Part shown: positions 2,032 through 16,244 of the stretch, one piece after another | How the letters are laid out: each line of letters begins with the position of its first letter | Numbering within the stretch: the stretch's first letter is position 1 | DNA from: an uncultured Granulosicoccaceae bacterium | GTDB lineage: Bacteria > Pseudomonadota > Gammaproteobacteria > Granulosicoccales > Granulosicoccaceae | Direction of reading: 5' to 3' | Assembly: GCA_938007995.1 (NCBI GenBank) | Contig: CALLLW010000019.1 | Span: 1 to 64,000 of the forward strand | DNA: 64,000 bases | Translations under genes and position numbers: made by a program | The notes under the pieces: generated by a model | Told to the model about the DNA's origin: nothing | Databases searched by the model: none | What the model saw: only the letters and a program-made list of their open reading frames with translations

Positions 2032-4092
2032 CTAGCTTTTGTAAATATCGACCGAGGTTTCAAGGCATTTTCTCTGAGAAAGATCATTAGCACCTATATC
2101 AAAAAAGCTATTTGTTTTTTGATAGAAGTCGAGGCCTCTACCAATTTTCACCGTCCATCCATTATCGATGCGTATTTCTCTGTCATGAAGCGTGTCGCTG
2201 ACCTCATAAACAAATTCGATATCAACCTCGATTAGACTCTGCTTTAAGTCCTCCAACATATCCTTAGTTCTTTTGAAAGATTCATCATTATCGCATCCCG
2301 TTATCAGTCTAATTTTTCTTACGCTGGAATTCTTTGCTATTACCTCACACAGCCGCACCAAATTATGCACCTGGTGAGTAATCCTTATATACGCATCCTC
2401 AATGACCACTTCTTTCGCACCCACAAGATACGGACCCACGATCGATTGTAGAGTATGACCGGTATCACCATAAAGTATTTTGAAGTGCTTTTCTTCTGGC
2501 TCAGTGACTACTGCTGCAGCTACCTCATCCACAGCTGGCGGGATGGGATCAAGCACTTCAGGAACGTCGACTACCGCTTCAACCTGCGGCGCATCTCCAT
2601 CGATAACCATTGACTCACGAACAGGGTCTAACGTTGCCTGAGCACCAACAGACTCAGGACAGTGTACGACTACTTCTTTCGCATCAACATCAAAATAAGA
2701 CAGATCGATCTTTGCGAATTCATCATCAGGCTTACGCTTATTCATTTGCTCTTTTACGCGACGGCGGCCTTCAACAGCATATGCCACATACTCATTGAAC
2801 TCTTCGTCCGTTACTTTACCGTCTGGGTGCAAGAGCTTAACCAGTGCACAGACAGTCTTTTTTACTCCTTTCTCATCACGCCCTTCTACGGCTGAGCCCA
2901 ATTTAATACGCCGGCTAACTTCTTCAAACCTGTTTGTGTGTTTAAGCTGATGGTGAAATGCCTCAGCAAGATAATCAGTAATAAAACCGTAGTTATTGGT
3001 TAAGAAATCCGAGCTTGTCTTGGGCATTTCCCAACCCGGCAAATAGCAGGCAAATCGATCCATAATTGCCAGGTCAAACTCCTTTGGCAAAGGTAGAAAC
3101 AGATCGAACTTGGTAGAATTAACGAGCTGCTGTATTGAATGATCTATATTTCCAACAAACGCCATGCTTGCATCTGCAATTACTTCTACCCCACGAGAGA
3201 AACGGCCATTCGCCATAAAGTCCTTCATAATTTGAATGGTATCGGGGTCACGTACCTTAATGCCCGCTACTTCATCAAAAGCAATAGTGTCCCAAAATCC
3301 AACAAGGCCAACGCGTCTTCGTGCATTATTATAGAAAAGTGCTGCCTTTGTGGCTTGTCCACCGCTGATCAGCGTCGAATAGGGCGAGAACTCACTGTAG
3401 AAATATGATTTACCTGTTCCTCGTGGACCAAGCTCTATAAAGTTAAAGTTTGGTTCTACTAGCGGTGCTAGTCGAGCCATAAAATGTAATTTCAACCGGT
3501 GAGTCAGTTTGCCTGGCTCTAATCCAACCGACCTCAGGACTACATCCAGCCATTCGTCGCGGCTAAAACTTGCTCTGCCTTCTTGGTAGCCGGAGTAGTC
3601 AAACCGGCTGAGCTGAATTGGACGCATTTCCTCAACATAGAAAGCATAGTCATCATCGTCGACTTCGTTGGCGACCAAGGTCACTTCCGCCCAAATTCCT
3701 CCTTCAAGTATTCTGTCATTGTCTTTGTAAAACTTTTCACCAATTGCGATTCTTTGAGAATTAAAATTCTCAAGCGATGCCCAGTGACGTTTTTCCTTTT
3801 CAACATAACGAACGTGAATCTTGTCAATAAACCGGTGTTTGCCCTTAGTCGCTACACGCGACTGCGCTGCGTTGGCTTCATCTGGCCTTACATAGTTGTC
3901 CTGCAAAGTCGCCAGAACCGCATCAATGCCGGCTTGGATTTCATCTTCATCGTCACTGGCGCAATATCTTGCCAATAGGAATTCAAGCACGAAGGTGGGC
4001 ACGTTAGTGCCTTTTTTTACTCGATGCAGCAGATCTTTACGGACAACCTTGCCGGAGAAGACTTCATTGAGCTTTGTATCTAACTTATCCAT
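2032..4092 (-). CDS. brxL: BREX protein BrxL: AAA+ ATPase with an MIT_C-like C-terminal domain
   Basis: The 686-residue protein has the BrxL AAA+ core: Walker A GPRGTGKS at 222-229, Walker B-like AFDEVA at 271-276 and the conserved segment ISGGQATKAALFYNN between them. BrxL proteins are DNA-binding AAA+ rings, needed for phage exclusion in type 1 BREX. Standard members end in a Lon-protease-like domain. Here, after an acidic, proline-containing linker (about 460-535), residues 536-686 instead match the MIT_C phospholipase-D-like domain of eukaryotic MITD1, including HDREIRIDNGWTVKIGRGLD and a CLETSVDI end. No Lon-type Ser-Lys pair is evident. It is the last gene of the operon, 8 bp after pglZ. 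Assignment as BrxL is firm; what the extra domain binds is unknown. Confidence 0.93.
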   Translation of the reverse strand: MDKLDTKLNEVFSGKVVRKDLLHRVKKGTNVPTFVLEFLLARYCASDDEDEIQAGIDAVLATLQDNYVRPDEANAAQSRVATKGKHRFIDKIHVRYVEKEKRHWASLENFNSQRIAIGEKFYKDNDRILEGGIWAEVTLVANEVDDDDYAFYVEEMRPIQLSRFDYSGYQEGRASFSRDEWLDVVLRSVGLEPGKLTHRLKLHFMARLAPLVEPNFNFIELGPRGTGKSYFYSEFSPYSTLISGGQATKAALFYNNARRRVGLVGFWDTIAFDEVAGIKVRDPDTIQIMKDFMANGRFSRGVEVIADASMAFVGNIDHSIQQLVNSTKFDLFLPLPKEFDLAIMDRFACYLPGWEMPKTSSDFLTNNYGFITDYLAEAFHHQLKHTNRFEEVSRRIKLGSAVEGRDEKGVKKTVCALVKLLHPDGKVTDEEFNEYVAYAVEGRRRVKEQMNKRKPDDEFAKIDLSYFDVDAKEVVVHCPESVGAQATLDPVRESMVIDGDAPQVEAVVDVPEVLDPIPPAVDEVAAAVVTEPEEKHFKILYGDTGHTLQSIVGPYLVGAKEVVIEDAYIRITHQVHNLVRLCEVIAKNSSVRKIRLITGCDNDESFKRTKDMLEDLKQSLIEVDIEFVYEVSDTLHDREIRIDNGWTVKIGRGLDFYQKTNSFFDIGANDLSQRKCLETSVDIYKS

Positions 4093-4100
4093 TACAACAC

Positions 4101-6614
4101 CTATAAGTAATTAGTCTTCAGAATCAGTTTGCCATACAGTGCCATGGTAACCGGGTCCATTGCCTTGATAGTAAATTTACCCTCGTAATCTTCCTCCATT
4201 TTCATGGTAATTCGAGCTTCGCTGCCAGTCGCCATCCTAATGGTTCCTGTTGCGGCATTAACCTGACCACCCGGCTTCGCCTCACCCACTACATTGCCTG
4301 CAGCATCCTGTGCCTCTAGCAATATCTCAAGCTCACCTGCCGCAAACATATCTACTTGGCCAATCGCTATGTCGATCACAGGCACCCTTGTGGTGATTTT
4401 GTTTGCCTTGTAGCTCAATTGTACCTGATGCTTTTCTGGCTCTAAATTCCCTTTTGAATCCTTAAATTTAACGGAGATCACTGGTACGATACACTCTTGC
4501 AGAGAAGCCCCGCCGTGAAAGTAAGAAACTCCAGTCGCGTACGCTGCTAGATTTCTTGGGCAAGCGAGCTGGTTATAGTTGCCGCTAATTGCCAAATCGG
4601 AGGTGCTAGCTACAAAATTACTAGAATCTTCTGCGCCATCACCCAGCAAACATCGGTTGTGTAGATTTTTCCAAGTGCCCGAAGGTTTATTGATTACGTC
4701 GCCCGGTCCGGCGTGGGCATTGATATAGAAGCCGTGGTCCGTGGCAATCACAACTCGATCAAAGCCAAACTCTCCTAGTTTATGAACAGCAACCCTCAAG
4801 CGGCGCAATTGATTAGATACATCAGATAACCCCGCTTCCAGGGAAGTTTCGAACCTCTCGTCGATATCATTCGTTCTCACAACCAATAGATCCACCGCAG
4901 GCTCAAAATTAGTTCGCTGTTTAATCAATGAATCCAATTTTACCTCTGCAAATCGCTCGTTATACAGTGACTTAAACACGCCCATACGATGATTGACCGT
5001 ACTTAGCTTTTCGCCGTTGTATTTAACAACTGAGTTGTCGCTGACCGATTCGATGCTCAGTGCAGTATCCGCTGCCGGTAGCAAACTGGCCATACCAACT
5101 GGCGTTACCGATGGCAACGGAGCACAGGCGGCAATTAGCTCTACCTGCCCTTCCCCACGCAATTCTTGCTCTAACGCAACACCCAACTCATAACGCAGTG
5201 CATCCACCAGGAAATAGGCAATTTTTTGCCCACTAGTCTGGAGATGCTTTGCTACTTGTCGCTCAAACACTTGCGTGTTAGCCAGCATTTCTGCTGCAGG
5301 CCAGCCAACTGATTGTAAGTGTTTTACATAATGCCCTTGCACTCGGTTGGTAATATCTTGATAAGATTTTCTAGCGACAGAGACAATTTCTTCCAACGAG
5401 TCACTACTAATCAGCCAGTCAGGTGCTGCCTGTTCAAACTCACGCTGAGCGCGATCCACCACGCGAAACATACTGGTGTAAAAATCAATAAGCGATTGCT
5501 GTGTCTTAGTATGCTCTGGCAATTGCCGATCTGCATCATCACACGCCTCTATCAGCTGCAATGCCGCACGAAGTAGTTGCCATTGTGACTGGCTTTCTCC
5601 CTTTCCTATCCAGACACTATTCGCGTGCTGATCAAGTATCTGCCGCACTTGATCTACATTGTCTTCTTTGAGAGCCGCAACGGCGGTTCGGAAAAAAGAA
5701 CGCTCTTCAAACGCGAAAGTATCGAGCACACCGAGATCTTGAATATCTTTACAGCACGCGGCCAAATTCAATTCATTCTCTACTTGTTCGGCACGCTCAA
5801 TATAGGTGCTTTGGCAATCCCTGTCCGCTCTGAGTTTGTTACACAGATACTCAATCACAGGCTTTGCATCAGGTGGTGAGATTGGCACCTCCTGTAACTC
5901 TTCCGGTATGGCAGCGGGTAAGTCAAACGCAAACTCACTCATTAGTACATATCGCCAAAGCTCATCGCTGATTGAGTTCCAGGTCTTGCCACGAGTCACC
6001 AGTTTCAAACCAATTGCCGTTTCGAAAAGCGCTTTAGCTTCAGTAACCCAGTTATCAGTATTTTTTAACTCACTTTTCTGTGAGTCTGTGGGTGCCATGA
6101 TTGCCAACAAGAGCTCCCTGGCAGAATCTGCCCTGAGAGCTGCTTGCAATTGCGGCCAACCACTGCCACCACCGATCGCATCAATTACATCAAAGCCTGG
6201 ACAGGTATTTTCACGAAACAATTGCCTGACCTGAGTCTGGTGATCAGATTTAGCGACCAAGCAAATGCTCTGGTACTCATCCCCATCCCCTTGTGGAAAC
6301 ACAGCGCCAATCTGTCCGTAGATCGCAAAAGGATCGCGCTGGGAATCTTCATCGGTCGTAGGGGCCTCAGCTGGCACGTACACCAACACTTGAATAATCG
6401 GGCTATTTGGTTGCCTTAGTTGCTGTAGTGTGTCTAATGCTCGTTCTCGACTTTGAATACTCGACTCGCTGGCATCAACCACTGTGCACTCTTCGGTGTC
6501 TAAAGAGAGGCAGGTATCCCGGTAGATATTCTCCGGATCGTATACAACCAGAATATCTGATTCTTTAAGCCGAGGTAGAAACACCTCTTGGCTGATATAT
6601 TCAGTAAGTCTCAT
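4101..6614 (-). CDS. pglZ: BREX protein PglZ, alkaline-phosphatase-superfamily
   Basis: 837 residues, the normal length of BREX PglZ. The C-terminal half carries the PglZ domain of the alkaline phosphatase superfamily: VDALRYELG near residue 470 supplies the metal-binding Asp region, and IATDHGFYINAHAG near 625 supplies the Asp-His pair. The N-terminal half is helical with no recognisable domain, and the last 100 residues look like a beta-sandwich. PglZ is essential in every BREX type and works with PglX and BrxC, though its substrate is debated. The gene lies 45 bp after pglX and 8 bp before brxL, on the same transcript. No damage is visible. Confidence 0.95.
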   Translation of the reverse strand: MRLTEYISQEVFLPRLKESDILVVYDPENIYRDTCLSLDTEECTVVDASESSIQSRERALDTLQQLRQPNSPIIQVLVYVPAEAPTTDEDSQRDPFAIYGQIGAVFPQGDGDEYQSICLVAKSDHQTQVRQLFRENTCPGFDVIDAIGGGSGWPQLQAALRADSARELLLAIMAPTDSQKSELKNTDNWVTEAKALFETAIGLKLVTRGKTWNSISDELWRYVLMSEFAFDLPAAIPEELQEVPISPPDAKPVIEYLCNKLRADRDCQSTYIERAEQVENELNLAACCKDIQDLGVLDTFAFEERSFFRTAVAALKEDNVDQVRQILDQHANSVWIGKGESQSQWQLLRAALQLIEACDDADRQLPEHTKTQQSLIDFYTSMFRVVDRAQREFEQAAPDWLISSDSLEEIVSVARKSYQDITNRVQGHYVKHLQSVGWPAAEMLANTQVFERQVAKHLQTSGQKIAYFLVDALRYELGVALEQELRGEGQVELIAACAPLPSVTPVGMASLLPAADTALSIESVSDNSVVKYNGEKLSTVNHRMGVFKSLYNERFAEVKLDSLIKQRTNFEPAVDLLVVRTNDIDERFETSLEAGLSDVSNQLRRLRVAVHKLGEFGFDRVVIATDHGFYINAHAGPGDVINKPSGTWKNLHNRCLLGDGAEDSSNFVASTSDLAISGNYNQLACPRNLAAYATGVSYFHGGASLQECIVPVISVKFKDSKGNLEPEKHQVQLSYKANKITTRVPVIDIAIGQVDMFAAGELEILLEAQDAAGNVVGEAKPGGQVNAATGTIRMATGSEARITMKMEEDYEGKFTIKAMDPVTMALYGKLILKTNYL

Positions 6615-6659: not shown

Positions 6660-9600
6660 TCAACGTATCCACTCACTACCCTTAACCTGTTCGATAATTG
6701 CATCTATTTCATCAGCTCTGAGCGACTTGGGTTTCCAAATCATCTTTTTGGTCTTTTTGCCGCTATTACTTTCCGTTACTTCTTCAACCTCTTCCCACAG
6801 ATCATTCTCTAAGTCATGGGCTATAGCAATACTTCTATCAGTTGTGCATTTCTCCCGAACTACGCGGTCGGGCCAGATGGAGAGAGCCAAATGGGCCCAG
6901 TCGTATTTGCCGGACTCCAGCTCGGACCAGGTTTTTTTGAGTTTGTTACGCCACTTGGTCAGGCGGAAGAATTTCCACAAGGGTGCGGCGGTGATTTGCA
7001 CGCCGTCATTGAGGTTCGGTTTCCAGAAGGCAGCGATCTCCAGCAGATCGGTTTTGAACTGCGTAAGATCAGTCTCCAGTTCAGTGAGCTGGGCGAGTTC
7101 TTTTTCCTGGGAAGTAGATCGATCTTTGATGGCCCGTAAGTCCGACAATTGCCGAAGCGTCGCCTTGAGCTTAGGATCGACAAAGTCGTTAACCGCTTTG
7201 TATAGCGTTTGATCGGTAAGACGATGATAATAAAACCATAGAGTGTAAGAACCCGACTCAGTCCCGATCGGCCAGTAGATCGGGGCGTACCGCCGGCTCT
7301 TGGAGTATCGGTCTAGGTGTTCAGCAAAGAACTTTGAAGAATTTTCAAGATATTCAAGAAACGAGGATTTAGGGAATTGAGAGTCCAGCTCTTCGGAAGC
7401 GGAGCAATCTCCGTTAGCAAATACGTGCTGTTCAAACGCACTAAACGCGCGTTCGAATAACGTTTGTGGCCCCGAGGTTCCGCAACAGAGTACCGCAGGA
7501 GAGTTTCCACTTGCAATTGAGTTCATCGCGACCGGGGATTGGGGTACTTCATCTAGCGGTTTTAACGTTTGGAAATCCCGCAATGCTTTTTTACAGTCCC
7601 ACCTTTCAAAAGCGCAGCCTACGAGAAATGAAGCCAAAGAGTGTCGCCACCATGATTCTAGCCTTGAGCCACTTGACGATGACTCCACTAATCCAGATAT
7701 AAATAAATGCCCATTATTGGTTCGTGCTTCCGCAGCGCCTTCGTTTATAGCATTTCGACCTGCTTCTTCAATTTTATATGCATTAAAGGCAATCTCATCG
7801 ATCTCATTTTGTTTCGCACGAATAGTGGTTCGACACTCACCGAAGAAAGCATTCAGGTCTGCGAAATGCTCTTCCAATGGTTTTCGTGTTTTGTCAAGAA
7901 ATATGGATTGAAACGTTCGACTTTCCTCCGTGAGTGACGATTGTCTAAACTTCAGTTGAACACAAACTTCGGCGGCTTGCGTAGCCGATTCTGAGATGCT
8001 CGCCTCAGGGATTGGAAGAATCTGAAGCTGACCAGCTTGATAGTGTCGTCCTGGATTAATTATGTCCAAAAACTCGCCGACTGTGCTCGAAGACAACAAC
8101 GCCAGACCACTCTCGGTCATTGCGCCGACGTATTGACCTTGTATTGAAAAAACAATGCCGGGCGGAAATACCTGCGGTGAAAACCCACAGCTACTTATGT
8201 TGATATATGCCAATCCGCTTTTGAAATAATAAGGCTCGTTTACAACGTGCCGTGAGGGTGAGTTTCCCAGACAAACCGTGTGCTGCTTTATTTCAAAGCC
8301 CTCCTTTCGCCAATTAACGACCAAATGAAAATCATCATAGAAAGGACTATATTCTCCTCCTTTATAAAACGTTGCCCAACGTTTCTCTGAGCCCAGTTCG
8401 CTGCGTGGAACCTCCCACGACAAGCGAATAAATCGAAAGTCATCGTTGGTTTGCAACCCTGCACATGCAAGATAGCCAGCTTGTCGGAAACTAGGCAGCC
8501 TTACAAAGCATCTCCAAATATCACTTGGCAGCCAATAGAGCCATTTTGATTCCGGAAGCGCGGCGAATGATTCGGCCGCAACGCAAAACGATTTTTGCGA
8601 GAGAGAGCCTGAATTAAGGTTTATAATTTCGGATAGAACCAACGGTTCTTTGCTGTCGATATCATCAAGCTTTATGAATACAGTTGAGTCAACTTTGGCT
8701 TTGATGCAAACATAACATGCAGTTTCAACCGCTGCGGCATCAAGTACTCCAGCACCAAGATCAATAAACGTAGTCGGCTGCACACTGTTCAACAACAGTT
8801 CACTTCGCCATTTTTCAAAACTCTTTAAGAAGAAACCCGTCCGAGAAGTTATAGCACCCACCAGGCCATTGTCGTGCAACTTCTCGACAAGTCTTGCCAG
8901 ACTCATTGAAAACAAGTCACTTTTCGAATTGGGATACATGCGTCCAAGAAAGGGTTTGGTATTTCCGCTTGTGTGGCCAAACGGGGGATTCGTTAGCGCT
9001 AGGTCATAAAATTTTTTTATCACATCTAAAAACGCAAATCCCTTCTCCGCATCACCCGCGAACAGCTTCCTACGAAAGCCGCCTTCGGAAGTTGCACTGG
9101 CGTACTTCCGGAGCGCCTCATAAATGGATTCTTCGGCCTGCTCGAAGAACTGCTGGTCGGTGATCCCGGAGAGATCAAACTCAAGTTGCTGTGATTGAGG
9201 TTTTTCAGTCTCGCCAAATAGCTGCAACTGGACATCAGCAGGCTGCTCCAACCACTGCTCCCTCGCCCGGCTTACCAGCTCACTAACTTCTTGCTCTATT
9301 TTGAGTAGCGATCCAGCCTCTCCCGCAAGCTTCATTTCCTCAAAGATCGTAACAACCATCTGCGCTATGGCCGGGTGTAATTGCTTACAAAACGAATCCA
9401 ATTGCCCCTTGTCGCCTGGCATCGGCTCTGCACAGACCACATTGCTACGGGTGACTTGCGGACGATCCCCGGAAGCTATACCCTGCGATTTCCAGGCTCG
9501 CTGGGCACGAAGCCAAAGCGATAAGCCTGCGATTTGAACCGCTCGCGGGTCGATGTCGATGCCGTGGATGTTGTGTTCGATGATCAGGCGGGGCACGTCT

Positions 9601-10742
9601 TTAAGGAACTCATCCTTTGATTCATATATCGTTAGCAACGGCGATAGTTCGGTTACCTCCACCTCAACCGACGAGTTAGCAGCAAGCAAATCCCAGAATT
9701 CATCGTAAATCTTTAAGTAAAGGTCAAAAGCATAGAGACCAAAGTGCATGCTTCCACAAGCAGGGTCGAGCATGCGGATTTCACGAGGATCTTTCAGTGG
9801 GCGGTGTGAAATGATAACTGGCTGATTTAGAAGCTCCTCCTGTGTGAGTTCTGCCTCAGCTTCAGAATCATCAACCTTTGGTACATCATCATCCACGCAC
9901 AGGAAGATTTCATTGGGACGCCGTGCAAGGTATTGGCAATCGTCAGCCAGACGAGTTTCTCCCTTCCGCATCTCATACCAAATGCGACCAAGAGTGTTAT
10001 CGGTGAGAAACTCCACAACGTAACGTGGAGTAAAAAACTGATTACGAACTGCTAGTTCACGGCTGTTGCGAGGAGCTTGCGAGGCATCCCGCATCGCTTT
10101 GCGCTCTTCTTTACTGTTGAAGTATTGGTAAATCCAGCCAATCGTTTCATCTTCTGCCCAAAGGTGCTGAAGATCTTGGTGATTGACTTCATCTAATACT
10201 TCCTGCAGTACAGATTCACGCGGGAATAATCTACCGTATTCACTAAACCGATCAAACAGTGCTGGCAAATCAACAGCTAATTCATCAAACACACTTTGCA
10301 AATAGCACCGATAAGCATCGCCAGTTTCACCTAACGCAGCACCTGCTAGTTGACTGTAGAGCCTGAACCCTTTGGATTGGTATCCATTTACAACGGATTC
10401 TGTGACTAAATCCCGAGCCTCTGCCATTCGCAGTGCGCAGAGTCTGTTAAGTACGGTGAATGATTGTTCGCGAACGATTCTGTCTATTAACTCTGCGTTT
10501 GTATTCTTCGTTTGCTTTGCTTCATTGGCTGCGTAATGTGAAAGCAGTTCTCGCAAAATAACAGCAGTTTGTTTTTCACCTTCAGCCATCGATGGCAATG
10601 TGTCAATTTCCGCAACACCTCCGGAATCTGGGTCCAACCCATACACATTTCTAAGCTGATCTGAAAATTCCTCCGTTAATATTCGCCTTACCGTTGTGAC
10701 GAAATTCGATAGGCGATTACGCGTTGCATCATCAAATGCCAT
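6660..10742 (-). CDS. pglX: BREX DNA adenine-N6 methyltransferase PglX
   Basis: 1360 residues, somewhat longer than the roughly 1200 of standard type 1 PglX. The SAM-binding motif I is LDPACGSMHFGLYAFDLY near residue 325 and the catalytic motif IV is NPPFG near 585, typical of gamma-class adenine methyltransferases. The first 300 residues are the BREX-specific N-terminal region, and the C-terminal half would hold target recognition. PglX methylates one adenine in a non-palindromic site to mark self DNA and is also required for blocking phage. The start codon is 5 bp after the brxC stop, so translation is coupled. The Met-His in motif I (usually Gly-His) is characteristic of one PglX subgroup rather than a defect. 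Confidence 0.95.
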   Translation of the reverse strand: MAFDDATRNRLSNFVTTVRRILTEEFSDQLRNVYGLDPDSGGVAEIDTLPSMAEGEKQTAVILRELLSHYAANEAKQTKNTNAELIDRIVREQSFTVLNRLCALRMAEARDLVTESVVNGYQSKGFRLYSQLAGAALGETGDAYRCYLQSVFDELAVDLPALFDRFSEYGRLFPRESVLQEVLDEVNHQDLQHLWAEDETIGWIYQYFNSKEERKAMRDASQAPRNSRELAVRNQFFTPRYVVEFLTDNTLGRIWYEMRKGETRLADDCQYLARRPNEIFLCVDDDVPKVDDSEAEAELTQEELLNQPVIISHRPLKDPREIRMLDPACGSMHFGLYAFDLYLKIYDEFWDLLAANSSVEVEVTELSPLLTIYESKDEFLKDVPRLIIEHNIHGIDIDPRAVQIAGLSLWLRAQRAWKSQGIASGDRPQVTRSNVVCAEPMPGDKGQLDSFCKQLHPAIAQMVVTIFEEMKLAGEAGSLLKIEQEVSELVSRAREQWLEQPADVQLQLFGETEKPQSQQLEFDLSGITDQQFFEQAEESIYEALRKYASATSEGGFRRKLFAGDAEKGFAFLDVIKKFYDLALTNPPFGHTSGNTKPFLGRMYPNSKSDLFSMSLARLVEKLHDNGLVGAITSRTGFFLKSFEKWRSELLLNSVQPTTFIDLGAGVLDAAAVETACYVCIKAKVDSTVFIKLDDIDSKEPLVLSEIINLNSGSLSQKSFCVAAESFAALPESKWLYWLPSDIWRCFVRLPSFRQAGYLACAGLQTNDDFRFIRLSWEVPRSELGSEKRWATFYKGGEYSPFYDDFHLVVNWRKEGFEIKQHTVCLGNSPSRHVVNEPYYFKSGLAYINISSCGFSPQVFPPGIVFSIQGQYVGAMTESGLALLSSSTVGEFLDIINPGRHYQAGQLQILPIPEASISESATQAAEVCVQLKFRQSSLTEESRTFQSIFLDKTRKPLEEHFADLNAFFGECRTTIRAKQNEIDEIAFNAYKIEEAGRNAINEGAAEARTNNGHLFISGLVESSSSGSRLESWWRHSLASFLVGCAFERWDCKKALRDFQTLKPLDEVPQSPVAMNSIASGNSPAVLCCGTSGPQTLFERAFSAFEQHVFANGDCSASEELDSQFPKSSFLEYLENSSKFFAEHLDRYSKSRRYAPIYWPIGTESGSYTLWFYYHRLTDQTLYKAVNDFVDPKLKATLRQLSDLRAIKDRSTSQEKELAQLTELETDLTQFKTDLLEIAAFWKPNLNDGVQITAAPLWKFFRLTKWRNKLKKTWSELESGKYDWAHLALSIWPDRVVREKCTTDRSIAIAHDLENDLWEEVEEVTESNSGKKTKKMIWKPKSLRADEIDAIIEQVKGSEWIR

Positions 10743-10747
10743 AGCGG

Positions 10748-13700
10748 TTAGCCTTTAACTGTCAGGGTGATTTCGATGTGTTGGTAAGCGTTCATCTCAT
10801 GCTGAACTGATCTGAACTTGCCTATCAGTTGCTCTAACTGCTCTACACTGTCGATTCGACTGGGAACCTCCAGTTCTCGCTTGATGGTTTTTGATACACC
10901 CTCACCGGCACCCACACTTTTTCGTTCTTGCTCTAGCCTCTCCTTGACTCTTTCCGCGACTCGAAGTTTTATCGACCCCTTTAACTTATTCGTTTTTTCG
11001 CTCAAGCTATAGGTTTGCCGGATTAAAGCTAACAATCCACTAAGATCCTCTGAATGCTGAATGGAAAATTCATCTAGCTCAGCCAATGCATTAGACTGTT
11101 CATCTGCATTGAGCTCTTTCCAGTCATATAGTCTTGTCAGATCTTCTTGCGCGGTTCTAACAGCGTTCTCGCATTCAATTGACATTTCCTTTGCAGCAGA
11201 CGCGGTTTGGGACTTTATCTCTGTGAGCGAGGTACGCATGTCTGCCGCGTGTTTAAAGAATTCGTCACTGATTATTTTTGCTTCTACCGCCCCCATCTCT
11301 TCTGAGAGCAAAGATTTAAGACTACCGGGAATGCCGGTGCTCGGTAGCGACTTTATTTCCTTAATATGCTGTTGAAGCTCACGCACTGTGCTGTCCAACC
11401 CAGCCTCAAGCTCTTTACTAACATCTTTCGCCCAACAGATGTCATCAAATAGTGGTGATTGCTCGCTGCCAAATACTTGGGGTGCTTCAGACGCATCAGA
11501 CTCTAGCAGGCCGTTGATGGCTTGAGTCAGAGCTTCAATGCGATCTCTACCGGGTAAGCCCAGATTAGTCAGCTTCTCACCCAGCGGTGCATATTGCGAT
11601 TGGTAGGCGGGGAATTTCTTGACAACCACCTTGCTGAGTTCGTCTTCCAACGGAAGTATATCTTCACCAGTAATTTCTACTAATCTACTTTGCGCTTTGG
11701 CGAGAAGCTCTGTTGACGGACGCCCTTCTCTAAGTGAAACCCCGACCTTTTTAAATGAGTTGTTTGTTCGGAGTGCTTCAATGGCTTGTTGACCATTGAC
11801 AGTGACCTCGACTCCTGAAGACCTAAGCTTGATTTCACCACCGCACAACAAAGCGGCCAGCAAATATCTGAGCGTATCTTGTGACCAGCCGAACGGATCA
11901 CTGGTAAACGTATCTATTAGTCGCTTTCCTTCGACGCTGCCATTGCGCTCTATATAGTCCCTGATACTAACCAGTGCTTTGCGATCAACGTCAATTGAGG
12001 GCGTGCCACCTTCCAGCTGTATTAAACCGAGCGGATCTTCCTCCTTGGTCATCGCTCGTAAATTGTCTTTGCGCAGGAATTTCTCAGCCAGATTGGTATT
12101 TGCCTGAATGGGTGCTTCTTTATAACGATCGAACACCTTTTCTGCGACCTTTGCCATGTGCTTCTTAGCAGCATCGTGCAGGTCTGAGCTTTCGCTGTTG
12201 ACGGCTGTTATGTCTGCACGAAAAACAAAAGAACCGGCTGTGAGGCTGTTTTTTAACGATACGCGCAGTTCCTGCTCTAGCTTTGCAGCGCGTTCCTGCT
12301 GAGAGATACAGTAGTCTTTGATTTCCTGATCAGGATCATTGCGGTATTTGGATACGATATCTCTGCAACGCGAAATTTCAGCGATTTTGTTTTCAATTTC
12401 ATCAAAGGATCTGCCCAGCAAATAGATATTGTTTTGTGATGCACGCTCTCGAGATTCATCAACCAGGTTATCTCTCGTTTCATCATACTGATCTGGCGCC
12501 ACAAACTGTACGATGGTTTGCACCGCCTCTCGCTCACCGGAGACGCTTGAAATATGGTTGCCAGCGTTGGTTTTTATTCCTGATTGAACGTTGCGAGTAT
12601 TCTCCAACCGAGTTGATGGCAATGGGCTAAATAGCTCACGTAATTGTTCACTGTGAATTTTTCGCGCTTCTATTGTACGAACCGAAAGCTCAGAGCGTTC
12701 CTTTTCAATATCGTTAAGCTTCTCGCTGAAGAAACAGAGATTGCCATCTTTCTCACCCAGCGGCACGATTGGGTCCTGGATAAGATCTTCAATCGCTTTA
12801 TCGACATCTGGTGCCCTGCCAGGCGTGTCTATGGCCGGATGCATAAGAGCTGCCACGTTGCGGTTACTGACCGGCATGTTGTTGAGAATTTGGAGTACGG
12901 CAACGGTTTTCGCGACATCTTTATGAAGATCGGAGTCTGCGAAGCGGATGTCGATGGCTTTTTCTGCTGCTTTGTGCGCTGATGGGAAAGCACGGCGAAT
13001 GTCTTTTTCCAGCGCGTCGTACAGTGTGACGGTAGTTGCCAACCAACCGACCGGGTTATTTGCTACCGGAGTTTGGTTATCCGGGCCTTCGATGAGAATG
13101 TCTTGTATTACCTTGATTGCAGATCGCAATCCGATACCACCTGTAGATTTTGCGAGCGTGCCCAACAGTTGCAATAAGATGTCGAAATGAGCGGGTAGAA
13201 ACGGATATAGGTCAATAAAAGATTGTTTATTGAAGTCTGAATCGTACGACTTTGCATCCTGTAGCTTTGTATTAGTTCGAAGCGCTTCGCCGTGGTCTGA
13301 AAATTCCTGGGCAAGCTTGGATTCGCCCTCGTTTGATTTGCTTAACAAGCGGCGGTGACAAATTTCTCGAATATCGCTGGATTCAAGTTCTATCTGAATT
13401 GGGAATCTGTCTTTGAGCTTGAATAGCTTGTCTGAGTTTAGCGCGGCGTTTGGATCATCTTCAGTCAGAGTTTGTTGCGCTGTACCAATTATCCATGCCT
13501 TGCCGCCGCCTATTTCTTTTAGGTTTTTGGCGAGTCCGTCCAGGTTGAGGATGAGATTGTCTCGGGAGCCGACGTACTGGCCAACTTCGTCAACGATAAA
13601 TATGACGTATTCTTTTCCAGATACTTCTTTTACGATATCAAGCATGTCTTCTACGCGCTTGTTCTCGAATTGAAAAAACTCGGACTCATCTGTGTTGAAT

Positions 13701-14380
13701 GACGTTGGGGTTTTAAACTCATTTGGATAAAAGTGATGTGCTAGATCAGGTACTACGCTATCTACTACTAACGGGTCATTGTGAATATCTTGCCAGTCGG
13801 TGTCATATTCTGCTTTGACTTTATTGCAAAAGTCTTCATATAGCTTGTCTTGCTGAAGCTTTCTTTCTAATGCTGCGATTTTTAAGTTGTTTGCGTACCC
13901 TGCCCATTGCAGTGTTTTAAGGAACAAAACCGACGACACGTCTGTCATGGTTGCCCCTGCTAGTTGCTCACTCGCAAGATCAAGCATGACTACGGCTGCT
14001 GGAAATTGCTTGGCTAAGGCACCCAACTGCGCCTTAGTTTGAGGTGTGAGGAGACGATCTTGCAAATGCTGCTGAAATGGCACGCCGTTGACTTGCTGCT
14101 GCTCGTCTAACGCTAACCCGAGATACTTGGTGAACGAACTCTTACCAGACCCATAGAACCCAGAGACCCAGACACCAATTTCGTTACCACTGCCGGTATC
14201 CATGGCAGTTTGCATTTTAGATATCAGATTTTCAAAATCAGCATCTATATTCTCTGTGACAATGTATTCTGAGATTTCAGCATACAAGCGATCTTCTTGC
14301 GAAGCGCTGTAGGTGATCACTTTTTCTATCGAGCGATAAATATCTTTTTGCGCATCGAATAAATCTTTAATTACTTGCAT
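10748..14380 (-). CDS. brxC: BREX P-loop ATPase BrxC (PglY family)
   Basis: 1210 residues, matching BrxC. Walker A is GFYGSGKSS at residues 74-82, and a Walker-B-like segment, VIFIVDEVGQYVG, lies near 260-272. The C-terminal 300 residues are rich in heptad-like Glu/Leu/Lys helices, consistent with coiled coil. BrxC is a large AAA+/ORC-like ATPase found in nearly all BREX types and needed for both methylation and defence. The ATG is preceded by a strong Shine-Dalgarno sequence (AAGGAG), unlike brxE and brxA, so it may be translated more efficiently. It begins 15 bp after brxB and ends 5 bp before pglX. Confidence 0.95.
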   Translation of the reverse strand: MQVIKDLFDAQKDIYRSIEKVITYSASQEDRLYAEISEYIVTENIDADFENLISKMQTAMDTGSGNEIGVWVSGFYGSGKSSFTKYLGLALDEQQQVNGVPFQQHLQDRLLTPQTKAQLGALAKQFPAAVVMLDLASEQLAGATMTDVSSVLFLKTLQWAGYANNLKIAALERKLQQDKLYEDFCNKVKAEYDTDWQDIHNDPLVVDSVVPDLAHHFYPNEFKTPTSFNTDESEFFQFENKRVEDMLDIVKEVSGKEYVIFIVDEVGQYVGSRDNLILNLDGLAKNLKEIGGGKAWIIGTAQQTLTEDDPNAALNSDKLFKLKDRFPIQIELESSDIREICHRRLLSKSNEGESKLAQEFSDHGEALRTNTKLQDAKSYDSDFNKQSFIDLYPFLPAHFDILLQLLGTLAKSTGGIGLRSAIKVIQDILIEGPDNQTPVANNPVGWLATTVTLYDALEKDIRRAFPSAHKAAEKAIDIRFADSDLHKDVAKTVAVLQILNNMPVSNRNVAALMHPAIDTPGRAPDVDKAIEDLIQDPIVPLGEKDGNLCFFSEKLNDIEKERSELSVRTIEARKIHSEQLRELFSPLPSTRLENTRNVQSGIKTNAGNHISSVSGEREAVQTIVQFVAPDQYDETRDNLVDESRERASQNNIYLLGRSFDEIENKIAEISRCRDIVSKYRNDPDQEIKDYCISQQERAAKLEQELRVSLKNSLTAGSFVFRADITAVNSESSDLHDAAKKHMAKVAEKVFDRYKEAPIQANTNLAEKFLRKDNLRAMTKEEDPLGLIQLEGGTPSIDVDRKALVSIRDYIERNGSVEGKRLIDTFTSDPFGWSQDTLRYLLAALLCGGEIKLRSSGVEVTVNGQQAIEALRTNNSFKKVGVSLREGRPSTELLAKAQSRLVEITGEDILPLEDELSKVVVKKFPAYQSQYAPLGEKLTNLGLPGRDRIEALTQAINGLLESDASEAPQVFGSEQSPLFDDICWAKDVSKELEAGLDSTVRELQQHIKEIKSLPSTGIPGSLKSLLSEEMGAVEAKIISDEFFKHAADMRTSLTEIKSQTASAAKEMSIECENAVRTAQEDLTRLYDWKELNADEQSNALAELDEFSIQHSEDLSGLLALIRQTYSLSEKTNKLKGSIKLRVAERVKERLEQERKSVGAGEGVSKTIKRELEVPSRIDSVEQLEQLIGKFRSVQHEMNAYQHIEITLTVKG

Positions 14381-14395
14381 GTTGAACTCCTTGCG

Positions 14396-14977
14396 TTAAC
14401 CACCAACGTGTACTGAACGGTAGTTACCGTCTTCTGGATAAAACCCGAGAAATTTGAGCCTGGTTTTGCCTGTACGCTCACCGGGGTAGAGGAAAACTGT
14501 AGGTGTTTGGAACTTGCCGTACAATCTGCCCTCAAGAGACCCAATGCGCAGGTAGGGGTGCAATGCTTCGAGGTCTGTGACTAGCAATAGGGCATTGTCC
14601 TTTTTGGAGATTTCCTCGAGCACTGTTTCTAACCTTTCCTGCAATGGGCCACCATCTTCTTTCACCAGAGCGTTGGTTAATGAAGCATTCGTTTTATCCC
14701 AATCCAGCGGTGCTTTCTTGTCAGCGGCGAGCCAGATTTTCCTGAGTTTTGCAGCGTTAAAAATTTCTTCGATTTCAGTTGCTATAGAAAATTGGGTTAC
14801 TTCGTAACCGGTATCGCGCAGCTTGGCTACCCAGCTTGGGGTTAAGCGCTTCACCTCCAGAATTTCCCGGGGCCTGAATACCAGGTAGTAGATGGGCTCA
14901 AAACTCGCCTGCGAGAATTCGCGACCGTCACCTACGCGGTTGAGCAGTTCGTTGAAGTTATTGGTCAGTGATGACAT
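14396..14977 (-). CDS. brxB: BREX protein BrxB (DUF1788)
   Basis: About 193 residues, the normal size of the DUF1788 family. Features seen include IYYLVFRPREILEVKRL near the N-terminus, LLVTDLEALHPYLRIGSLE and VFLYPGERTGKTRLKFLGFY close to the C-terminus, which are the most conserved blocks of BrxB. Its biochemical role is unknown, but it is required in tested BREX systems. The frame is open from a TTG at 14980; the ATG immediately after it (14977) is taken as the start. It overlaps the end of brxA by 20 bp and is followed by brxC after 15 bp. Confidence 0.93.
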   Translation of the reverse strand: MSSLTNNFNELLNRVGDGREFSQASFEPIYYLVFRPREILEVKRLTPSWVAKLRDTGYEVTQFSIATEIEEIFNAAKLRKIWLAADKKAPLDWDKTNASLTNALVKEDGGPLQERLETVLEEISKKDNALLLVTDLEALHPYLRIGSLEGRLYGKFQTPTVFLYPGERTGKTRLKFLGFYPEDGNYRSVHVGG

Positions 14978-15737
14978 CAATCAATTCCGACATGGATTTG
15001 TAAGTCCAGGATATATCTGAGATTCCGGCGGCACTTTGCACAATGAAATGGCCTTGTTTTGAAAGGTTTTGTAACTCAGCAAGTACATCGGCTCTTTCCA
15101 GACCAAATAACTCCCAATCTTCATGGGTAAGAACATGGTTATCACCAAGACCGCTCAAGTGAAGCAGATAAGCTAGCACCAGGCTCACAGTCGGCTCAAT
15201 ACGCACGACACTGATACCTACCTTTTTGCCTCCGCTGGAATCTACTAACTTAAAATCTCTGCAAGCCCCGATTAGATATGAGCTCACTCGTTTGACAGTA
15301 GTCTCCGACCAATGCTTATGTGTCAGACCATCTTGATTAGCTCGAACCACAAAGTCACGTGCGGCCTCTCTTTCAATACTGGTATTACCCGCCGCATAGC
15401 TCGGCCAATAAACTTGCCTAACAAAATCTGCCAGTATCCGATTCGCACGACACGCGAATATAAAAAAAAGCTGATTTAGTGATCGTGATTGGAGTTGAGG
15501 CGATAGAGGCTTAAGCCATTCTGCAATGGGTGGGTCTCCGACTAAAAGTCGTGGTGCAAAACACTCAGAGACAATATTGCGCAAGCGCCTGGCTGACACG
15601 TTGGGGAATTGGCCAGACTCAAGTGCGGAGTCTATTAGTTGCGATGAGGATGTATCAGGTGTCCAGATCTCAAGCAATTCCAAGGTTTCCGGTATAAGAC
15701 CGAGACCTGCCTGAAGCTGTGTTGTGTATTTACACAA
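14958..15737 (-). CDS. brxA: BREX protein BrxA (DUF1819)
   Basis: 259 residues of the DUF1819 family, recognised by the N-terminal YTTQLQAGLGLIPETLELL, followed by a helical fold with the block VSARRLRNIVSECFAPRLL. BrxA proteins are small DNA-binding helical proteins with a NusB-like fold. The only start that keeps the conserved N-terminus is a TTG at 15737, 6 bp after the brxE stop, with a poor ribosome-binding site. This suggests expression by coupling to brxE. Its end overlaps the brxB start, again suggesting coupled translation. Confidence 0.92.
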   Translation of the reverse strand: MCKYTTQLQAGLGLIPETLELLEIWTPDTSSSQLIDSALESGQFPNVSARRLRNIVSECFAPRLLVGDPPIAEWLKPLSPQLQSRSLNQLFFIFACRANRILADFVRQVYWPSYAAGNTSIEREAARDFVVRANQDGLTHKHWSETTVKRVSSYLIGACRDFKLVDSSGGKKVGISVVRIEPTVSLVLAYLLHLSGLGDNHVLTHEDWELFGLERADVLAELQNLSKQGHFIVQSAAGISDISWTYKSMSELIDVITDQ

Positions 15738-15743
15738 AGTAAG

Positions 15744-16244
15744 CTAGCCGCCCGTACCAACAAAATACGGAAAGACCTTTTTTCCTTTGGTGAAACCACA
15801 CGAATACATTTTCGCTATGCGTTGCCAACTCTCCTTTTGTTGCATATCGGATATGTTACCAGCGACTATCGGTCCCTCGGGGACACCATCTAGCTCAGCA
15901 CCTTCAATCAACTTAGAACTAGTTGCATCAGTGGATTCTAAGTGCGGCGTGATATCGCTAATGAAGTCTGAATCTTGAAGTTGCTTATGTATTTCAAGCT
16001 CAATGTCTTCAGGCAGTCGGAAAAGATGAAAGACCGACCCAACCCCTATTCGTTCGTCGTGAACCAAGGCCGCAGCTGACGAAACCCCGTTACATTTCGC
16101 GAGTAAGCTTGTTCTTGGAAACACCGGCTTGATGAATGAAGTGCTAGATTTGGAAAAGAAATCAGAGCCCCACCGATCGGTGTTTTCTTTTTCGCCAAGC
16201 TTCCCGACGAGACATCGAAGTGATGCGAGATAGGAAATGTCCAA
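15744..16244 (-). CDS. brxE: BREX protein BrxE, first gene of the operon
   Basis: 166 residues that fit the BrxE family of type 6 BREX: a leading LRCLVGKLGEKENTDRWGSDF segment, a block around FPRTSLLAKCNGVSSAAALV, then the strongly conserved HDERIGVGSVFHLFRLP. Function is unknown. The start is TTG at 16244 with a good upstream GAAGG about 9 nt away. It opens the operon, 6 bp ahead of brxA. Finding brxE ahead of a type-1-like brxABC-pglXZ-brxL set is unusual. I recognise the family from memory of its conserved pattern, so the name is slightly less sure than the other Brx genes. Confidence 0.8.
   Translation of the reverse strand: MDISYLASLRCLVGKLGEKENTDRWGSDFFSKSSTSFIKPVFPRTSLLAKCNGVSSAAALVHDERIGVGSVFHLFRLPEDIELEIHKQLQDSDFISDITPHLESTDATSSKLIEGAELDGVPEGPIVAGNISDMQQKESWQRIAKMYSCGFTKGKKVFPYFVGTGG

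Follow-up and report, generated by a model that had tools for sequence, protein, structure and literature searches.

The BrxL protein that closes a BREX operon in the window (the whole stretch of 64,000 nucleotides analysed here, from an uncultured Granulosicoccaceae bacterium) ends in MIT_C, the phospholipase D (PLD)-like domain of the MITD1 family, where ordinary BrxL proteins carry a Lon-like domain. We consider it probable, at roughly 0.6, that the protein combines an AAA+ ring on DNA with a tethered MIT_C domain that would act as a DNA phosphodiesterase and cut phage DNA beside PglZ. Support for this reading comes from a nearly unbroken HxRx4D motif, from the operon context and from the matches of the domain to MIT_C and to MITD1. 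The gene, its domains and its operon are located in Table 1.

Table 1. Coordinates of the BrxL-MIT_C gene, its domains and the accompanying BREX genes in the window.
Feature	Position	Strand	Description and evidence
BrxL-MIT_C	2032..4092	minus	686 aa, closes BREX operon; PADLOC PDLC02508, TIGR02688
BrxL N-terminal domain (residues 10-139)	3676..4065	minus	PF20442 BrxL_N, 154 bits
BrxL AAA+ ATPase core (residues 151-462)	2707..3642	minus	PF13337 BrxL_ATPase, 409 bits
Tether, core to MIT_C (residues 450-536)	2485..2745	minus	
MIT_C, PLD-like domain of MITD1 family (residues 545-685)	2038..2460	minus	PF16565, 161 bits
HxRx4D...RGLD motif (H636, R638, D643, R652-D655), candidate HKD-type active site	2128..2187	minus	
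PglZ	4101..6614	minus	PF08665; PADLOC PDLC02561, 1097 bits
PglX methyltransferase	6660..10742	minus	NF033452 BREX-1 PglX, 719 bits, over cut-off
BrxC	10748..14380	minus	NF033441, 793 bits
BrxB	14396..14980	minus	PF08747
BrxA	14958..15737	minus	PF08849
BrxE family protein, opens the operon	15744..16244	minus	NF033447, 135 bits

A preliminary description had placed an AAA+ core, a linker and a MITD1-like C-terminus at 2032..4092, and this is borne out, but the gene lies on the minus strand; plus-strand frame 1 over 2032-4092 has many stops. The protein contains GPRGTGKS and AFDEVA in its AAA+ core, HDREIRIDNGWTVKIGRGLD, and a CLETSVDI end. Along residues 1-685 it is matched by the PADLOC model for BrxL, PDLC02508, at 928 bits, and TIGR02688 (NCBIfam) scores 498 bits, over its cut-off. 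BrxL_N and BrxL_ATPase are both present and the gene is sited in a BREX operon, which identifies the product as a BREX BrxL. The MIT_C model is covered at 142 of 142 positions, and the score of 161 bits exceeds the cut-off of 25 (Pfam); the isolated domain reaches 166 bits, and no other Pfam model matches it at E up to 10. Lon_C finds no match in the protein (Pfam, E up to 1), so that the C-terminal Lon-like domain of a Lon-type BrxL is absent at this threshold, whereas two ordinary BrxL proteins used as controls do match Lon_C, at 41 and 31 bits. The N-terminal MIT domain of MITD1 is also absent, MIT_C being preceded by BrxL domains only (Pfam). Among PDB sequences, residues up to 473 match Acinetobacter BrxL (8EMC/8EMH, 437 bits) and residues 534/537-684 match human MITD1 (4A5Z, 2YMB) at E ~1e-28, the sole significant match of the C-terminal part to a solved structure. 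A profile of 24 domains retrieves MITD1 at 4e-48, followed by malate dehydrogenase at 0.024, in a search that returned 8 sequences in all at E up to 10. Judged by sequence, the identification of the C-terminus as MIT_C is confirmed far above chance, and a PLD-like fold of the domain is supported through its match to the solved MITD1. The replacement of the Lon-like end by MIT_C, as first described, is likewise supported by Pfam, by the PDB matches and by the Lon_C-positive controls; profile comparison assigns the C-terminus to the whole MIT_C model and leaves Lon_C unmatched. An origin of the C-terminus in the Lon family is rejected on the MIT_C-only match (E up to 10), Lon_C being seen in the controls. 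A frameshift or fusion artefact is rejected because the reading frame is uninterrupted and each of the best 80 of 231 relatives has this architecture within a single ORF.

The seven genes of the operon run on the minus strand from 16244 down to 2032 in the order BrxE-BrxA-BrxB-BrxC-PglX-PglZ-BrxL, and together they form a Type-1-like BREX anti-phage operon. The PglZ stays below the cut-off of each listed NCBIfam PglZ model (best 191 vs 400 bits). The leading BrxE, which we take to be a gene of BREX-6, is mixed here with BrxL and a BREX-1 PglX; given this combination and the PglZ below cut-off, the lineage matches no single NCBI BREX type. The operon adjoins a broken CARF-HEPN (Csx1/Csm6-like) gene at 1030-1941 on the minus strand, which is divided into two ORFs by an in-frame stop near 1522 and whose end is severed near 1030, at the contig edge, beside two ORFs (357-1024) that are presumably IS66-type transposon genes.

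How often the swap occurs was a question raised by the preliminary description. A scan of genome contigs with the whole BrxL yielded 231 relatives, and the best 80 of these 231, a set biased toward close, full-length sequences, were analysed. All 80 have the BrxL core and MIT_C within one ORF; they match at 66-74% identity and belong to ten named phyla: 60 are Pseudomonadota, 6 Chloroflexota, 3 Thermodesulfobacteriota, 2 Planctomycetota and 2 Cyanobacteriota, five more phyla have one each, and two relatives are without a phylum. PglZ is found in 79, PglX in 68 and BrxC in 48 of these 80 loci, counts that are bounded by the extent of the locus DNA. PglX takes the form of two neighbouring ORFs in 35 of the 68 loci (e.g. 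L013-L016, L021), of about 630-830 aa apiece among the 12 examples listed, which suggests a split methyltransferase/specificity pair; it is a single long ORF in 26 loci and ambiguous in 7. Tepidimonas fonticaldi (NZ_VJOO01000006.1, L022 and L024) appears to carry two tandem BrxL-MIT_C BREX operons, the second of which begins with BrxE. In a fairer sample of 398 Pseudomonadota genomes, the window's own among them, 17 have BrxL_ATPase over cut-off; the BrxL ends in MIT_C in 7 of 17, so the swap is no rarity, and in an end that is Lon-like by eye in 10 of 17, and Pfam detects Lon_C in both of those that were scanned. Low-scoring MIT_C matches in four genomes were dropped as noise, their ORFs reading as ABC transporter ATPases.

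Among 72,556 plasmid records, the window MIT_C domain matches 24, with brxL annotated under the match in 17 of them, and a MIT_C domain of clade A (described below) matches 25. None of 50,697 phage records matches at E up to 1e-5, and in IMG/VR a BrxL match is present at 32 of 33 loci, 24 of those 32 having another BREX gene; a phage-gene origin is rejected on the lack of a match in these phage records and on the mostly BREX-bearing IMG/VR loci. On one IMG/VR contig, a single frame (L122, 2294-4231) fuses PglZ 254-538 to BrxL 460-685 and MIT_C, and is a shrunken BREX remnant.

The exchange of a Lon-like for a PLD-like end in BrxL is common and already reported. According to the accessible text of Rakesh & Krishnan 2026 (PMC12839542), the Lon domain of Type-1 BrxL is replaced in 1030 of 2913 by an HKD-endoDNase with a lysine-to-arginine change (HRD), and earlier credit for this end is given there to Li et al. 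2025. Since motif, position and frequency agree with that account, we take the HKD-endoDNase to be the same domain as MIT_C. In a passage of PMC12715929, 'phospholipase D-like domain at C-terminus of MIT (PF16565)', BrxL (COG4930) and PF13337 are listed as BREX parts, with Goldfarb et al. 2015 cited for the listing. The whole-length BrxL model PDLC02508 was already in PADLOC in 2023.

Conservation of the motif was counted over 123 distinct domains, taken from bacteria and from IMG/VR, one of which ends before the motif. Of the other 122, all have the histidine, 121 have the arginine and 118 have the aspartate. Asparagine replaces the aspartate in four domains, three of BrxL and one of an IF2_N protein, and the sole arginine-less domain is that of a BrxL-MIT_C on a Tenacibaculum plasmid (L166), which has HDC instead of HxR. 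An alignment of 41 rows (A2) contains 16 invariant columns, including H636, R638, D643, W646 and R652-G-L-D655. For comparison with the PLD superfamily, 37 PLDc_2-type segments carrying both HxKx4D and G[ST]x[NF] were picked from 30 loci. In the top-scoring local profile-profile alignment, LHDREIRIDNGW (HDREIRID) falls on HxKx4D and the EDPYI strand pairs with the corresponding strand; the score of 24.6 is above all 200 column-shuffled controls (best 22.1) and above that of the reversed profile (16.6); the hhalign probability for the PLDc_2 match is low (13-15% local, 1-2% global). As HxRx4D aligns in register with HxKx4D, with arginine at the lysine position in 121/122, MIT_C is most plausibly a member of the PLD superfamily whose motif is HRD. 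Arginine in the place of the HKD lysine could weaken catalysis or eliminate it. MIT_C might then be a catalytically dead sensor of the phosphate backbone of nucleic acids, a reading with which the near-universal arginine (121/122) agrees, as does the retention of histidine and arginine in MITD1, where the aspartate is asparagine; the nucleophilic histidine, however, is kept in every copy, which is unexpected for a dead site, and we hold such a role to be very unlikely.

Both MIT_C and the BrxL core that carries it divide into two deep clades, D and A, each supported at 100/100 in core trees of 42 and 40 rows chosen from 153. Clade D has mostly the HDR motif and includes the window BrxL, and clade A has mostly HAR; clade A also takes in one sequence from Arthrobacter (L163) and one from Hymenobacter (L167), which are counted on its side in the 44-row tree and the linker counts below. 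In the best core trees, Lon-type BrxL separate clades D and A, so that two changes are needed. MIT_C was possibly swapped into BrxL twice, but a single MIT_C clade is not rejected (AU p 0.339) and is recovered at bootstrap frequencies of 26% and 12% (200 trees); the tree program warned that long branches come together at the junction of clade D with some of the Lon-type rows. Two other architectures were each seen once. A Thiodictyon plasmid encodes a 947-aa protein that has a dynamin GTPase domain and ends in MIT_C (L092, 7619-10459), with no BREX genes annotated in the surrounding 20 kb, and this is a membrane-remodelling type of context for MIT_C. A Paenarthrobacter plasmid encodes a protein of 349 aa with IF2_N and MIT_C (L119, 8413-9459), and no BREX genes are annotated in the 18 kb around it.

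Identity between the human MITD1 domain and clade-D domains ranges from 40.5%, the value for the window BrxL, to 51.4%, and identity to MIT_C outside clade D is 27-34%. The human domain keeps 14 of the 16 bacterial invariants, including the motif histidine and arginine, with D643 changed to N and Q658 to K. In a 44-row tree rooted with clade A, from which the two longest branches (the dynamin and IF2_N proteins) are omitted, MITD1 is sister to clade D, with 100/100 for clade A versus the rest and 83/80 for clade D without MITD1. In a 36-row tree, it is placed alongside the basal rows of clade D, in a group of 19 rows at 98/96 whose inner 16 rows, without MITD1, have 98/91. MITD1 is thus grouped with clade D on the clade-A-rooted tree, which holds one eukaryotic sequence and is rooted without an outside root, and we make no claim of nesting. 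As depth and variety are greater on the bacterial side, the direction from bacteria to eukaryotes would be favoured, and the data suggest, without proving it, that the domain of a eukaryotic cytokinesis factor was acquired from the bacterial family. In particular, we tentatively propose that the PLD-like domain of MITD1 may derive by gene transfer from a clade-D BrxL or a close relative, with its phosphodiester-binding pocket kept, and that it may bind or cut a phosphodiester instead of acting on membranes alone. If either MITD1 or BrxL-MIT_C is an enzyme, the conserved pocket of the other calls for explanation. No paper on the kinship of MITD1 with BrxL or BREX was found in a search that reaches few subscription papers, so its absence is unproven.

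The same kinship bears on the reading of MIT_C as a binder of anionic lipids, as in MITD1, that would anchor BrxL at the inner membrane, for example at the site of phage DNA entry. MITD1 is the nearest solved relative, and its PLD-fold domain is membrane-binding according to the title of Hadders et al. 2012, as cited in PMC9477494. The 14 of 16 invariant residues that the two have in common would agree with a shared function, as would the bacterial protein joining a dynamin GTPase to MIT_C, but the latter is a single case. The bacterial invariants, moreover, resemble an active site, with the motif aspartate in 118/122 domains versus asparagine in MITD1, and the targets of the BrxL core and of its partners in the operon are DNA or one another. 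Phosphoinositides are, to our knowledge, generally absent from bacteria. We therefore regard a membrane anchor as unlikely, and, on sequence grounds, a nucleic-acid function of MIT_C appears better supported, a membrane function being secondary. Because the membrane binder MITD1 itself keeps the histidine and the arginine, conservation of the pocket is no proof of catalysis.

The tether between core and MIT_C differs from the corresponding part of Lon-type proteins. From the RRVKxQ motif of the core to MIT_C, linkers measure 82-142 residues in clade D (median 94, 89 distinct) and 65-94 in clade A (median 80, 27 distinct), and in both they contain 28-32% Pro+Ala beyond the first 40 residues, whereas the whole tail beyond RRVKxQ in Lon-type BrxL is near-constant at 221-229 residues (17/17). 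With linkers so long and variable against the constant Lon-type tails, the PLD-like domain seems to be flexibly held, unlike the ring-joining Lon-like domain of Acinetobacter BrxL. The tether also weighs on the possibility that MIT_C is a non-catalytic dimerisation or ring-pairing module, in the structural role of the tail-to-tail Lon-like domain. Single-motif PLD-like domains commonly dimerise, in line with such a role. Tail-to-tail pairing is, besides, mediated by the C-terminal domain in Acinetobacter BrxL, as described in the accessible text of PMC10164562. A scaffold alone, however, would need no invariant H, R, D, R and D, and a rigid contact between rings is less probable on a tether that is long and variable, so that pairing as the sole function seems quite unlikely.

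Under the phosphodiesterase reading, which we prefer, the N-terminal and AAA+ parts of BrxL would assemble as a ring on DNA, by homology to Acinetobacter BrxL, and MIT_C would be a DNA phosphodiesterase on a long flexible tether. His636 would be the nucleophile, acting with Asp643 and with Arg638 at the place of the usual HKD lysine, and Arg652/Asp655 would shape the phosphate pocket. Single-motif PLD enzymes usually make one active site out of two subunits, and for this reason MIT_C domains may pair within or between BrxL rings. MIT_C would then nick or cut phage DNA, adding to the activity of PglZ. The published record, in the parts accessible, describes the Acinetobacter BrxL core as a DNA-binding, ring-forming AAA+ (PMC10164562) and a nuclease activity of PglZ (PMC13326643), and the HRD endoDNase reading of the BrxL end was published independently (PMC12839542). 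Against a defence role, BrxL is reported in PMC13326643 to be dispensable for restriction in some BREX systems. H636 and R638 offer mutational handles on a possible second BREX nuclease besides PglZ.

Compared with known systems, the N-terminal and AAA+ parts of the window BrxL are those of Acinetobacter BrxL (8EMC/8EMH), whose end, according to the accessible text of PMC10164562, is Lon-like, has no obvious protease motif and pairs two rings; the swap shows what many BrxL carry in place of this inert end. The BrxL proteins of PMC12839542, as far as described there, have in common with the window protein the core, the replaced Lon-like end, the K-to-R HRD motif and a Type-1 BREX setting, but the end is named HKD-endoDNase, and the accessible main text is without MITD1, MIT, ESCRT, dynamin or PF16565. 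PMC12715929 is a lanthipeptide study that mentions PF16565 in passing, and domain analysis and the MITD1 kinship are absent from its accessible passages. PLDc_2 nucleases and phospholipases have HxKx4D in register with the HxRx4D of MIT_C, but their lysine and GSxN motif are not kept in MIT_C and the likeness is visible by profile comparison only. Human MITD1 (2YMB, 4A5Z) has the whole domain in common with the window BrxL, but there it is carried by an ESCRT-III-binding MIT domain, with no AAA+ ring and with asparagine at the motif aspartate; the kinship connects a bacterial defence effector with a human ESCRT-III partner.
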